A stretch of DNA of 64,000 nucleotides from Dyella terrae. Lineage in GTDB: Bacteria > Pseudomonadota > Gammaproteobacteria > Xanthomonadales > Rhodanobacteraceae. Position numbers and translations under genes: made by a program. The notes beneath the pieces were generated by a model that searched no databases, was not told the origin of the DNA, and saw nothing but the letters and a program-made list of their open reading frames with translations. The DNA lies in contig NZ_SIZZ01000001.1 in assembly GCF_004322705.1 (NCBI RefSeq), positions 1,736,001 to 1,800,000 of the forward strand, in the 5' to 3' direction. Positions 26,851 through 36,074 of the stretch are shown piece by piece. Position 1 is the first letter of the stretch; each line of letters opens with the position of its first letter.

Positions 26851-28752
26851 TTAGCGACGCGTCTCGGCCTCCAGGCGCTCGATGAAGGCGGCCAGCGGCA
26901 TGCTGCCCAGGTCTTCACCGGTACGGGTACGGACGGAAACCGCCCCGGATTCCTTCTCGCGATCACCTACGACGAGCAGGTACGGGACTTTCTGCAACGT
27001 ATGTTCGCGGATTTTATAACCGACCTTTTCATTGCGCAAATCGGCCTTAACCCGGAAACCTTTGTCTACAAGGGCTTGCGTGACCTCGCTGACATAGCCG
27101 GCCTGGGCGTCGGTAATGCTGAACACCTGGGCCTGGACCGGGGCCAGCCAGGCCGGCAGGTTGCCGGCATGGTGCTCGATCAGGATGCCGATGAAGCGCT
27201 CCATGGAGCCCACGATGGCGCGGTGGAGCATCACCGGATGGCGGCGCTGGCTGTGCTCGTCCACGTACTCGGCGCCCAGGCGCTCGGGCATCATGAAGTC
27301 GACCTGCATCGTGCCGACCTGCCAGGCCCGGCCAATGGAGTCCTTCATGTGGTACTCGATCTTGGGGCCGTAGAAGGCGCCCTCGCCCGGCAGCTCCTCC
27401 CATTGCACGCCCGCCTTGCCCAGCGCGGCACGCAAGGCATCCTCGGCGCGATCCCACACGGCGTCGCTGCCGATGCGCTTGTCAGGGCGCAAGGCGATCT
27501 TCAGGGCGATGTCGTCAAAGCCGAAGTCCGCGTACACCTGCATGGCCTGCTGGTGGAAAGCCGTAACCTCGGATTCGATCTGGTCTTCCGTGCAGAAAAT
27601 GTGACCGTCGTCCTGCGTGAAGGCACGCACGCGCATGATGCCGTGCAGCGCGCCCGAGGGCTCGTTGCGGTGGCAGCCACCGAACTCGCCGTAGCGGATC
27701 GGCAGGTCGCGGTAGCTGTGCAGGCTGGTGTTGTAGATCTGCACATGGCCGGGGCAGTTCATCGGCTTGAGCGCGTAGGTACGCTTTTCCGACTCGGTGA
27801 AGAACATGTTTTCCTGGTAGTTGTCCCAGTGACCGGACTTCTTCCACAGGCTCACGTCCATGATCTGCGGACCGCGCACTTCCTGGTAACCGCTGGAGCG
27901 ATACACGCCACGCACGTACTGCTCGACGGCCTGCCAGATGGCCCAGCCGTTCGGGTGCCAGAACACCATGCCCGGCGCTTCTTCCTGCTGGTGGAAGAGA
28001 TCAAGCGCCTTGCCGATCTTGCGATGGTCGCGCTTTTCGGCCTCTTCCAGCTGGAGCAGGTAGGCCTTGAGATCCTTGTCGTTGAGCCACGCCGTGCCGT
28101 AGACGCGCGTCAGCATCGCGTTGTTGGAATCGCCACGCCAATAGGCGCCGGCCACCTTCATCAGCTTGAAGGCGCGGAGCTTGCTCGTGTTCGGCACATG
28201 CGGGCCGCGGCACAGGTCGGTGAACTCGCCCTGCGAATACAGCGACAGCTCCTCGTTCGAGGGAATGCTCTCGATGATTTCAGCCTTGTATTCCTCGCCG
28301 ATGCCACGGAAGAACGACACCGCCTCGTCGCGCGACTTCACGCTGCGCGTCACGGGCAGTTCTTCCTTGACGATCTTGTTCATCTCGTCTTCGATCTTGA
28401 CCAGGTCGTCCGGCGTGAAGGGACGCTCGTAGGCAAAGTCGTAAAAGAAGCCGTTGTCGATCACCGGGCCGATGGTGACCTGCGCGCCCGGGTACAGGCG
28501 CTGCACGGCCTGCGCCAGGAGATGCGCCGTGGAGTGACGCAGGATTTCCAGCGCCTCGGGGCTCTTGTCGGTGACGATCTGCAGGCTGGCGTCGTGGTTG
28601 ATCGTGTAGCTGGCATCCACCAGCTTGCCGTCGACCTTGCCGGCCAGGGTGGCCTTGGCCAGACCGGCGCCAATGGAGGCAGCCACGTCCTGCACGGAGA
28701 CGGGATGGTCGAACGGGCGTTTGCTGCCGTCGGGGAGCGTGATCTCAATCAT
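26851..28752 (-). CDS. thrS: Threonine--tRNA ligase
   Basis: Class II synthetase charging tRNA-Thr, 633 residues from the ATG at 28752. Order: TGS domain ([15 protein letters not shown], 1-62), editing domain with [11 protein letters not shown] (about 73, zinc/editing His), catalytic core with motif 2 ([19 protein letters not shown], about 350-368), zinc ligands in MNCPGH (Cys about 333) and motif 3, then the C-terminal anticodon-binding domain (about 530-633). It heads the thrS-infC operon. The upstream leader has the layout of a threonine attenuator (28826-28904). Confidence 0.97.
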
Positions 28753-28825
28753 CGCAAATCCTGATCTGCACCCATCAAAGGGGCGCTTGCTTGAAGTTTC
28801 TGGAGCGTTGCCCGCCAGATGGGGG

Positions 28826-28869
28826 CAAAAATAAAGAGCGCCAGGCGCCCTTTGTGTCAGCACAAGGCG
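28826..28869 (-). promoter_or_regulatory. Putative transcription attenuator of thrS
   Basis: On the minus strand an intrinsic terminator, AAAGGGCGC-CTG-GCGCTCTTT (28853-28833, eight of nine pairs canonical) followed by ATTTTTG, lies about 75 bases before the thrS ATG. No gene on this strand precedes it. The segment just upstream can form a competing hairpin: CGCCTTGTG (28869-28861), CTGA loop, CACAA-AG-GGCG (28856-28846), which uses the left arm of the terminator. The two structures exclude each other. With the Thr leader ORF upstream this is the standard attenuation layout. TTGACA at 28994-28989 may be the -35 box, though its spacing to TAAACT is short. Confidence 0.7.
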
Positions 28870-28877
28870 TGGCGGCG

Positions 28878-28904
28878 TCAGCAGTGGAAAGTGGTAGTTG
28901 CCAT
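28878..28904 (-). CDS. Putative threonine leader peptide of thrS (eight residues)
   Basis: ATG GCA ACT ACC ACT TTC CAC TGC TGA encodes MATTTFHC. Three consecutive threonine codons in an eight-codon ORF are located nine bases before the antiterminator stem. The ribosome site is weak (GAG eight bases upstream). Ribosome stalling at the Thr codons when charged tRNA-Thr is scarce would favour the antiterminator and thrS expression. Assigned from layout only. Confidence 0.6.
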
Positions 28905-29045
28905 GTCACACGCTCGGCCGGCGTCTACACGCGGGCCACCTTGTCGTCCGGTTTGGGTCACGGAACGCTAGTTTACCGCAGATCGACCTGTCAATTCAGG
29001 TTTCGGCAACCGATACAATAGCGCCCTGCCCTCCAGGACCCGCAC

Positions 29046-30050
29046 ATGCGCATTCTTGTCACCGGAACCGCCGGCTTCGTCGGCGCCGCTCTCACCGAAC
29101 GCCTGCTGGCCCGCGGCGACCAGGTTTACGGCATCGACAACCACAACGACTACTACGATCCGTCGCTGAAGGAAGCCCGCCTGGCCCGGTTCCAGACCCA
29201 TCCGGCCTACACCCATGTGCGCGGTGACATTGCCGATGCCGCCGTGGTCAACGCAGCATTTACCGATTTCGCGCCTCAGCGCGTGGTGAACCTGGCGGCC
29301 CAGGCCGGCGTGCGCTACTCCCTGCAAAACCCCCAGGCCTACGTGCAAAGCAATCTGGTCGGCTTCACCAACATCCTGGAGGCCTGTCGGCACCACGGCG
29401 TTGAACACCTGGTGTACGCCTCGTCGAGCTCGGTCTACGGCGCCAACCGCAAGCTGCCCTTCGCCGTGGAAGATGCGGTCGACCACCCGGTCAGCCTGTA
29501 CGCCGCCAGCAAGAAGGCCAACGAACTGATGGCGCACACCTACAGCCACCTGTTCGGCCTGCCGACGACCGGACTGCGCTTCTTCACCGTCTACGGCCCC
29601 TGGGGCCGCCCGGACATGTCGCCGATGCTGTTTGCCGACCGCATCAGCCGCGGCGAACCGATTGATGTCTTCAACTACGGCAACCACAGTCGCGATTTCA
29701 CTTACATCGACGACATCGTCGAGGGCGTCATCCGCACGCTCGACCATGTTGCCCAGCCTGATCCGACCTACAACCCGGAACGGCCGAACCCCGGCACGTC
29801 CAATGCGCCCTATCGGGTGTACAACATCGGCAACGACCAGCCGGTGCAGCTCCTGCATTTCATCGAGCTGATGGAAAAAAACCTGGGTCGCGAAGTCGAA
29901 AAGCGCCTTCTCCCCATGCAGCCCGGCGATGTGCCCGATACCTGGGCGGATGTGTCGGCCCTGCGCCGCGACGTGGGCTATGCACCGGGCACCAGCATCG
30001 AGGAAGGCGTGGCGAAGTTCGTCGAGTGGTACAAAAGCCGCCAGCACTAA
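29046..30050 (+). CDS. NAD-dependent epimerase, UDP-glucuronate 4-epimerase type
   Basis: Extended short-chain dehydrogenase, 334 residues, likely making UDP-galacturonate for surface polysaccharide. The NAD motif is GTAGFVGAAL (7-16), the signature loop is DNHNDYYDPSLKEARL (about 35-50), which is typical of the glucuronate epimerase group, and the catalytic Tyr-Lys is in YAASKKANE (about 151). AAQAGVRYSLQNP is also characteristic. It stands alone, with no glycan cluster around it. Confidence 0.85.
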   Translation: MRILVTGTAGFVGAALTERLLARGDQVYGIDNHNDYYDPSLKEARLARFQTHPAYTHVRGDIADAAVVNAAFTDFAPQRVVNLAAQAGVRYSLQNPQAYVQSNLVGFTNILEACRHHGVEHLVYASSSSVYGANRKLPFAVEDAVDHPVSLYAASKKANELMAHTYSHLFGLPTTGLRFFTVYGPWGRPDMSPMLFADRISRGEPIDVFNYGNHSRDFTYIDDIVEGVIRTLDHVAQPDPTYNPERPNPGTSNAPYRVYNIGNDQPVQLLHFIELMEKNLGREVEKRLLPMQPGDVPDTWADVSALRRDVGYAPGTSIEEGVAKFVEWYKSRQH

Positions 30051-35999: not shown

Positions 36000-36074
36000 T
36001 GGTGCGCGGTACAAGGATCGAACTTGTGACCCCTACCATGTCAAGGTAGTGCTCTACCGCTGAGCTAACCGCGC
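36000..36074 (-). tRNA. tRNA-Val (GAC)
   Basis: 75-nt cloverleaf with encoded CCA. The acceptor stem is GCGCGGT/ACCGCGC, the anticodon stem-loop is CTACC-TTGACAT-GGTAG giving GAC, and the T-loop is GTTCGATCC. Confidence 0.96.

Follow-up and report, generated by a model that had tools for sequence, protein, structure and literature searches.

The window (the whole 64,000-nt stretch of DNA that was analysed) carries on its minus strand a gene for a threonyl-tRNA synthetase, which by recognition we take to be thrS, in a series presumably reading thrS-infC-rpmI-rplT. The elements before and including thrS, in 5' to 3' order, are:

28965-28994, minus strand: promoter-like sequence TTGACA (28994-28989), 18 nt, TAGCGT (28970-28965), predicted by consensus only
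28935-28943, minus strand: region A, CAAGGTGGC, containing AGGTG (28941-28937) and able to pair with region B (28873-28863)
28916-28937, minus strand: hairpin H, GGCC-C-GCGT-GTAG-ACGC-C-GGCC, between AGGTG and the leader start
28878-28904, minus strand: leader ORF MATTTFHC, ATG at 28904, stop TGA at 28880-28878, Thr codons 3-5 being ACT ACC ACT
28838-28876, minus strand: predicted antiterminator hairpin, -18.2 kcal/mol, B (28876-28864) pairing with C, the loop and early D (28851-28838)
28827-28853, minus strand: intrinsic terminator AAAGGGCGC-CTG-GCGCTCTTT followed by ATTTTT, stem 28853-28833, U-run 28832-28827, hairpin -10.8 kcal/mol
26854-28752, minus strand: thrS, threonyl-tRNA synthetase, 633 aa, its start (28752) 80 nt past the terminator stem

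The reading MATTTFHC at 28904-28878 agrees with a preliminary description of this DNA, which had proposed an eight-codon leader with three consecutive Thr codons, and the terminator named there (28853-28833 with its U-run) was recovered independently by a consensus scan that listed two sites in 28400-29400 against 0.7 expected in shuffles. The antiterminator that had been placed at 28869-28846 is the inner part of a longer predicted hairpin at 28876-28838, and the distance from the terminator stem to thrS is 80 nt rather than the 75 or so bases first given. The neighbouring ORF on the far side, 29046-30050 (plus strand), is divergent from thrS and therefore, as had been claimed, no gene directly upstream is in need of the terminator. 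Given that the antiterminator and the terminator both use 28853-28838, the two are mutually exclusive. B:C is more stable than the terminator in the window, as in 107 of 135 loci, and the lowest-energy fold of the whole 124-nt leader combines A:B, H and the terminator (-43.9 kcal/mol), so that all three classic attenuator states can be drawn. The global fold of the window leader is not more stable than shuffles (z -0.74) and, since its total stability is ordinary for its composition, the case stands on comparison and not on energy.

Two further features of the locus were observed. A GTG at 28863 (ORF 26851-28863, minus strand) is in frame with thrS and reads through the terminator; an automatic annotation could wrongly take it as the start of a 670-aa ThrS, whereas 28752 is the start that is conserved. 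Between rplT and pheS, where pheM sits in E. coli, the minus strand at 25371-25340 holds a strong terminator-like hairpin, GGGGAGGAGGC-CAAC-GCCTCCTCCCC-GTTTTTG, and inspection of 25460-25180 by eye gave no Phe leader before pheS, only this hairpin.

Conservation of the leader and its threonine codons

Relatives were compared as 80 contigs, 80 further regions of the order and 80 regions from outside it, all taken upstream of thrS, so that the order set comprises 161 regions with the window included. The 80-contig set includes records named Dyella, Frateuria, Rhodanobacter, Luteibacter, Fulvimonas, Arenimonas, Lysobacter, Luteimonas, Thermomonas and Dokdonella and a Pseudoxanthomonas MAG, and none named Xanthomonas. 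The 80 further regions are made up of 60 from ten other families and 20 from 19 genomes of the window's own family (f1), and the outside set holds one region per family; 111 outside-order genomes gave a thrS match, of which 80 are represented. Within the family, thrS matches at E<=1e-100 occur in 143 of 147 genomes, one each except in G006, which has two.

A motif-defined leader, resting on three start motifs, is present in 139 of the 161 order regions, a count over related species that are not independent and over two genome sets that overlap in part (L059 equals L100 over the 215 nt compared). Three types are distinguished:

Type I, 115 regions: usual form AAGGTGGCC-hairpin-GAGYGTGYGAC-ATG, the hairpin being absent in L073 and L081
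Type II, 20 regions: GAGNCGTAG-hairpin-CACGATCAC[CG]-ATG-AC
Type III, 4 regions: GAGGTGGCAC-ATG

Codon 3 is Thr in all 115 type I leaders, and the start motifs used do not require Thr. It is written as ACT in 104, ACG in 5, ACA in 4 and ACC in 2, and the use of four different Thr codons indicates that the amino acid is conserved and not merely the bases; ACT is a rare codon, making up 4 of 138 Thr codons in nine coding sequences of the window. Codon 4 is Thr in 94 of the 115. In type II, Thr at codon 2 is largely built in, because the search pattern included ATGAC. The remaining leader codons mostly vary widely. The Thr codons described for the window are thus conserved in relatives, but usually as two and not three: of 139 leaders 12 have one, 79 two, 47 three and one has four. 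The shortest leaders have 5 codons and the longest 14, with 99 of 139 having 8, and in 125 of 139 the distance from the first Thr to the stop is 5-7 codons, a spacing which, to judge from the sequences, is what would free B when a ribosome stalls and hide B when it reaches the stop.

The start motif is absent from three of the 80 contigs (L038, L055 and L005, the last of which begins at the leader ATG, so that its leader is seen only from there on) and from 19 of the 80 further order regions. Several of the motif-less regions have other Thr leaders, of unlike sequence and in the same place: MASTLTTVD and MNVSFRTTT in f5, MCQQATTTTTP in f7, MIIATRTFTG and MLSTRTFID in f8, and, by eye, MKLQERTTC in L129 of f8. 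One f9 genome has MKTTTKN, and MRTTTMAIH is another Thr-run leader of quite different sequence from another family. Bar a doubtful MTTF in L132, a Thr leader was not seen in the single f6 region, the four f10 regions or three of the four f9 regions, and neither a Thr leader nor the operator motif treated below was found in L134-L137 (f10) or L124 (f6).

Some individual regions deserve mention. Two contigs labelled as Eremiobacteraeota and Rhizobium MAGs (L005 and L051) encode ThrS 94% and 81% identical to that of the window, with the leader present, and are probably mis-binned. The two thrS genes of G006 (L161, L162) are 87% and 55% identical to the window's; the first has a leader, MQTRHFPT, without a parsed terminator, as if control had decayed once a second synthetase arrived. 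In L062, L064, L067, L070, L073, L075, L081 and L114, and in the outside-order regions L163, L165, L166, L168 and L169, the gene immediately upstream of thrS is a tRNA-Val gene, with anticodon GAC by eye; in the window tRNA-Val(GAC) is at 36000-36074, about 7 kb from the thrS leader. By eye, several Dyella regions (L008, L011, L014, L015 and L023) carry REP-like hairpin repeats of the kind CCGGCCATCCATGGCCGG between the attenuator and thrS.

Amino-acid identity and genome-wide placement

A neutral detector was used that asks for a terminator within 330 nt of thrS and an ORF of 5-25 codons ending before it; a Thr leader was counted where a leader ahead of a terminator has two or more Thr in a stretch of 5 codons. 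This strict detector finds a terminator in 72 of the 81 regions formed by the window and the 80 contigs, and Thr is the commonest repeated residue (62 of 81), followed by Arg (31) and Ala (30). By family, Thr leaders occur in 16/20 regions of f1, 23/28 of f2, 3/3 of f3, 6/6 of f4, 4/4 of f5, 1/1 of f7, 3/4 of f8 and 5/5 of f11, and in 0/1 of f6, 0/4 of f9 and 0/4 of f10, the last three being families in which the detector returned nothing. Thr is the top residue in f1, f2, f3, f4, f5, f8 and f11 and is tied with Gln in the single f7 region. Outside the order Thr is found in 2 of 80 regions, below Pro (11), Val (10), Arg (9), Leu (7), Ser (7), Ala (4) and Trp (3), the detector finding a terminator in only 22 of these 80.

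Genome-wide, the pattern GRGYGTGYGACATGNNNACNNS occurs in 45 of 59 genomes of the family, once each, always on the thrS strand and 83-235 nt 5' of the thrS start, and its backwards control gave one match; the placement of the leader start motif at thrS is far beyond chance. An alignment of 28 rows, 27 of them distinct, was the basis of a covariance model, R1, which has matches at E<=0.001 in 41 of 101 order genomes, one each. Every f1 and f2 match adjoins thrS, as do weak matches in f3, f4, f11 and one f8 genome; those in f5 (G160) and f10 (G199) lie away from thrS. In a class draw of 184 genomes, R1 also gave weak matches in eight outside-order genomes (best E 3.7e-6). These were set aside: the position of thrS is known in six of the eight, and in each of these the match lies elsewhere, and of two inspected one is a coding stretch and the other a plain terminator.

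Pairing within the leader RNA

With a lenient parser a terminator follows 135 of the 139 leaders; the four without one are L050, L095, L143 and L161, and L050 has one by eye. The loops of plain terminators are free to vary. Here, the loop with two nucleotides on either side scores -9.22 against its own post-stop segment, compared with a permuted mean of -6.88, and 0 of 5000 permutations was as low (33 distinct loops). For the loop alone the figure was 2 of 5000, and with three flanking bases included it was 0 of 5000; in the control, the loop with two nucleotides on either side against the leader ORF, 1985 of 5000 permutations were as low. Given that the terminator loop co-varies with the post-stop segment, the antiterminator is supported. 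For the whole B:C duplex the cognate partner is preferred over non-cognate ones with p 2.7e-8 (44 representatives), and the control duplexes A:C, leader:X and leader:C gave p 0.49, 0.13 and 0.64 respectively. Tested against shuffles of its own spacer, B:C reaches p<=0.05 in 14 of 44 as a duplex (mean z -1.25) and in 6 of 44 as a hairpin (mean z -1.00). Column counts are weak, with 78.9% of cells paired against 56.2% at the best slid position, 27 of 500 shuffles as high and a covariation score reached by 174 of 500, and a second count, on 24 sequences drawn almost entirely from f2 and Lysobacter-like loci, was uninformative, at 62.6% paired and 162 of 500 shuffles; this is partly due to poor alignment of the variable spacer, which MAFFT does not align. 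Both the Thr codons and the alternative pairing are kept across relatives, where the preliminary description had asked that they be sought.

A ribosome covers about 12-15 nt beyond its A site. Region B begins one base past the leader stop in the window, with a median gap of 4 nt over 135 loci, and by that footprint the 5' strand of the antiterminator is placed where a ribosome at the leader stop would cover it.

The other helices of the leader differ in their reach. Terminator columns are 89.3% paired against 83.1% when slid by 2 columns, their covariation score being reached by 21 of 500 shuffles. In hairpin H, 97.7% of cells are paired (at most 40.7% when slid), 8 cells are changed on both sides and the covariation score is reached by 0 of 500 shuffles. 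The A:B pairing is 89.3% paired near the window (27 distinct close sequences; best slid 53.1%), with a covariation score reached by 16 of 500. Across the order (42-44 representatives), A:B shows no cognate advantage, at p 0.55 with 70 nt and p 0.23 with a 16-nt core, and this 1:2 protector was dropped as an order-wide feature. Given that its support comes from close sequences, A:B is treated as a local feature.

Predicted promoter and leader translation start

TTGACA standing 16-18 nt before T[AG]NNNT was sought in the 75 type I loci of the window and the 80-contig set, and was found in 49 of them (32 exact, 17 with one mismatch) against 0.9 in shuffles (0.1 exact, 0.8 with one mismatch). Among the 40 of these 49 for which the place was listed, the promoter-like sequence always lies 83-94 nt 5' of the leader ATG. 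A stricter consensus scan listed no promoter at 28994-28965. The conserved promoter-like sequence 5' of the leader places the leader inside the expected transcript, for which a start near 28958 would be expected. A thrS transcript starting downstream of 28826, which would have spoken against the preliminary description, is thus not indicated, as far as consensus goes.

AGGTG, which we take to be complementary to the 16S 3' end, is invariant in alignment A1. In type III leaders, and in L073 and L081 of type I, it stands, by eye, 4 nt before the ATG with no hairpin between, and in the window and most of type I, H lies between AGGTG and the ATG, with 11 nt left when H is set aside. This suggests that H would bring AGGTG close to where translation begins. 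A weaker competitor as ribosome site is GAG at 28915-28913, which stands 8 nt ahead of the ATG.

Alternative explanations

In place of attenuation, hairpin H and GAGYGTGYGAC could constitute an operator at which ThrRS regulates its own synthesis through a tRNA-like hairpin, as in E. coli, with the ORF being incidental. E. coli thrS is controlled by ThrRS binding, a subject of titles in the reference list of PMC7373986, and the stretch GAGYGTGYGAC 5' of the leader, which shows strong conservation, contains CGU or UGU, both of them Thr anticodon triplets. Nevertheless, this is very improbable for several reasons: the loop of H is variable with no constant anticodon, types I, II and III align locally with 24 operators no better than shuffles do, and an operator leaves the Thr codons and the co-varying antiterminator unexplained. 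Furthermore, an operator motif with a CGT loop followed by an RNCRCCA arm, sought by sequence only in the last 260 nt before thrS and found in E. coli as positive control, turned up in 23 of the 80 regions from outside the order, where shuffles give 0.2, and in 0 of the 161 within it; because the motif is a strict one, 23 is a lower bound, and failure to find it does not prove that ThrRS does not bind. Operator motif and Thr leader do not overlap in the regions compared. A derivation of the leader from the operator was also considered, the type II sequence CGTAG...CGATCACCATGACG resembling the operator CGTAGCGATCACCACTG of L168 and L174, and was rejected at an alignment score of 9.57 against 9.27 in shuffles (median p 0.405); the resemblance is a weak lead only.

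It could also be argued that the hairpin is a plain terminator, ending either a short RNA from the promoter or, in some relatives, the transcript of an upstream tRNA-Val gene, and that thrS is transcribed from another start. By eye, a tRNA-Val gene does lie directly upstream in a number of relatives. The upstream ORF of the window is divergent, however, and a plain terminator gives no role to the Thr codons or to the co-variation of loop and post-stop segment; in addition, at 37 of 135 loci no more than 30 nt separate the end of the terminator stem from the thrS start, too few to hold a promoter, and this explanation is accordingly given very little weight. Slightly less credible still is that the leader acts mainly on translation, through coupled initiation or as a general stall sensor, rather than on termination. 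The leader is close to the thrS start in some relatives, and it has been proposed that leader genes lacking regulatory codons can increase translation (PMC4833913), yet U-run terminators follow 135 of 139 leaders by the lenient parser and the post-stop segment pairs with the terminator loop.

Proposed mechanism

It is suggested, with high confidence, that the region is a ribosome-mediated transcription attenuator of thrS which senses charged tRNA-Thr; conservation and co-variation favour the earlier proposal that thrS would be induced when charged tRNA-Thr is low. RNA polymerase would start near 28958 and transcribe the leader, and a ribosome would begin the eight-codon ORF. When Thr-tRNA is plentiful, the ribosome would reach the stop and cover the first post-stop nucleotides, preventing B:C, so that the C:D terminator forms and thrS is off. 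When Thr-tRNA is short, the ribosome would stall at codons 3-5 and leave B free to form the B:C antiterminator as soon as C is made, and transcription would continue into thrS. With no ribosome, A:B pairing could allow the terminator, at least in the window and its near relatives. Leader translation, stalling, the footprint geometry and the direction of the response are what we infer from this arrangement.

Taken at the level of the order, the best reading of the comparison would be a change of control mode for thrS. It is tentatively proposed, as a possibility that falls a little short of an even chance, that early in the order thrS lost control by a ThrRS operator and gained a minimal leader attenuator, in which a single invariant Thr codon (type I codon 3, most often the rare ACT) does the sensing, a Shine-Dalgarno sequence lying at a distance is carried to the start codon by a conserved hairpin, and one AGGTG strand is used both to load the ribosome and, among the relatives of the window, to protect the terminator; lowered Thr charging would then raise thrS-infC-rpmI-rplT. 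One essential gene would thus be under two unrelated RNA control modes within a single class of bacteria, and the regions compared show a clear boundary between the two (operator motif outside the order, Thr leader inside), providing a tractable case of control-circuit replacement. The leader, at 8 codons and often with two Thr, is unusually short for one that senses an amino acid, as judged against known leaders, and a covariance model is supplied for a region without an Rfam family match.

Comparison with known systems

In Firmicutes the thrS leaders are T-boxes, and both these and the Rfam Thr_leader (RF00506) would share with the present region antitermination keyed to tRNA-Thr charging or Thr codons. 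The T-box covariance model has no match in the window or at 28700-29000, and RF00506 has none over its cut-off in the window or in 21 genomes, seven of which have sub-threshold matches; the one in the window's genome was dismissed, being a tRNA gene followed by a terminator. Rfam at gathering score gave only three tRNAs in the whole window, and a lax threshold at 28700-29000 gave only two chance-like matches (best E 0.61). In E. coli, ThrRS binds an anticodon-like hairpin in the thrS operator and blocks ribosome binding; the gene and the aim of matching ThrRS to need are the same, whereas the operator's motif is absent in the order (0/161).

A 2010 comparative survey by Lopatovskaya, Seliverstov and Lyubetsky, cited in PMC4833913, reportedly covers attenuation of aminoacyl-tRNA synthetase operons, and it may already list thrS attenuation in these bacteria. 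In the open-access library searched no paper was found that joins thrS, Xanthomonas and a leader peptide or attenuator, and PMC2965389 describes hisS leaders and an rpsL leader in Xanthomonas, its main text not naming thrS. That the control mode differs from that known for this gene and lineage, as first proposed, agrees with the absence of the operator motif from the 161 order regions, but a Thr leader before thrS is not itself new, having been described in Streptomyces lividans (PMC8079986). This leader peptide, thrL, likewise has two Thr and precedes thrS, and the likeness is drawn from its description; it belongs to a distant phylum, is 18 aa long and is read from a leaderless transcript, and PMC8079986 calls its termination unclear.

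The closest parallels in design come from the proteobacteria themselves. The leaders trpL, hisL, thrL, pheL and pheM are ribosome-mediated attenuators of proteobacterial biosynthesis operons and of pheST, and have in common with the thrS leader a short ORF with codons for the sensed amino acid, a terminator, an exclusive antiterminator and a downstream gene of the same amino acid. The thrS leader differs from them in its size, usually 8 codons against the greater length of the known leaders, with 2-3 Thr in a set position; in its conserved hairpin between the AGGTG stretch and the start codon; and in having the first strand of the 1:2 pairing upstream of the ORF, a pairing unsupported across the order. 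In summary, the proposed mechanism belongs to a known kind, but its place and form are new, and the present comparison adds conservation over most of the sampled families, a co-varying antiterminator, hairpin H, a minimal leader and an opposed distribution of the operator motif.
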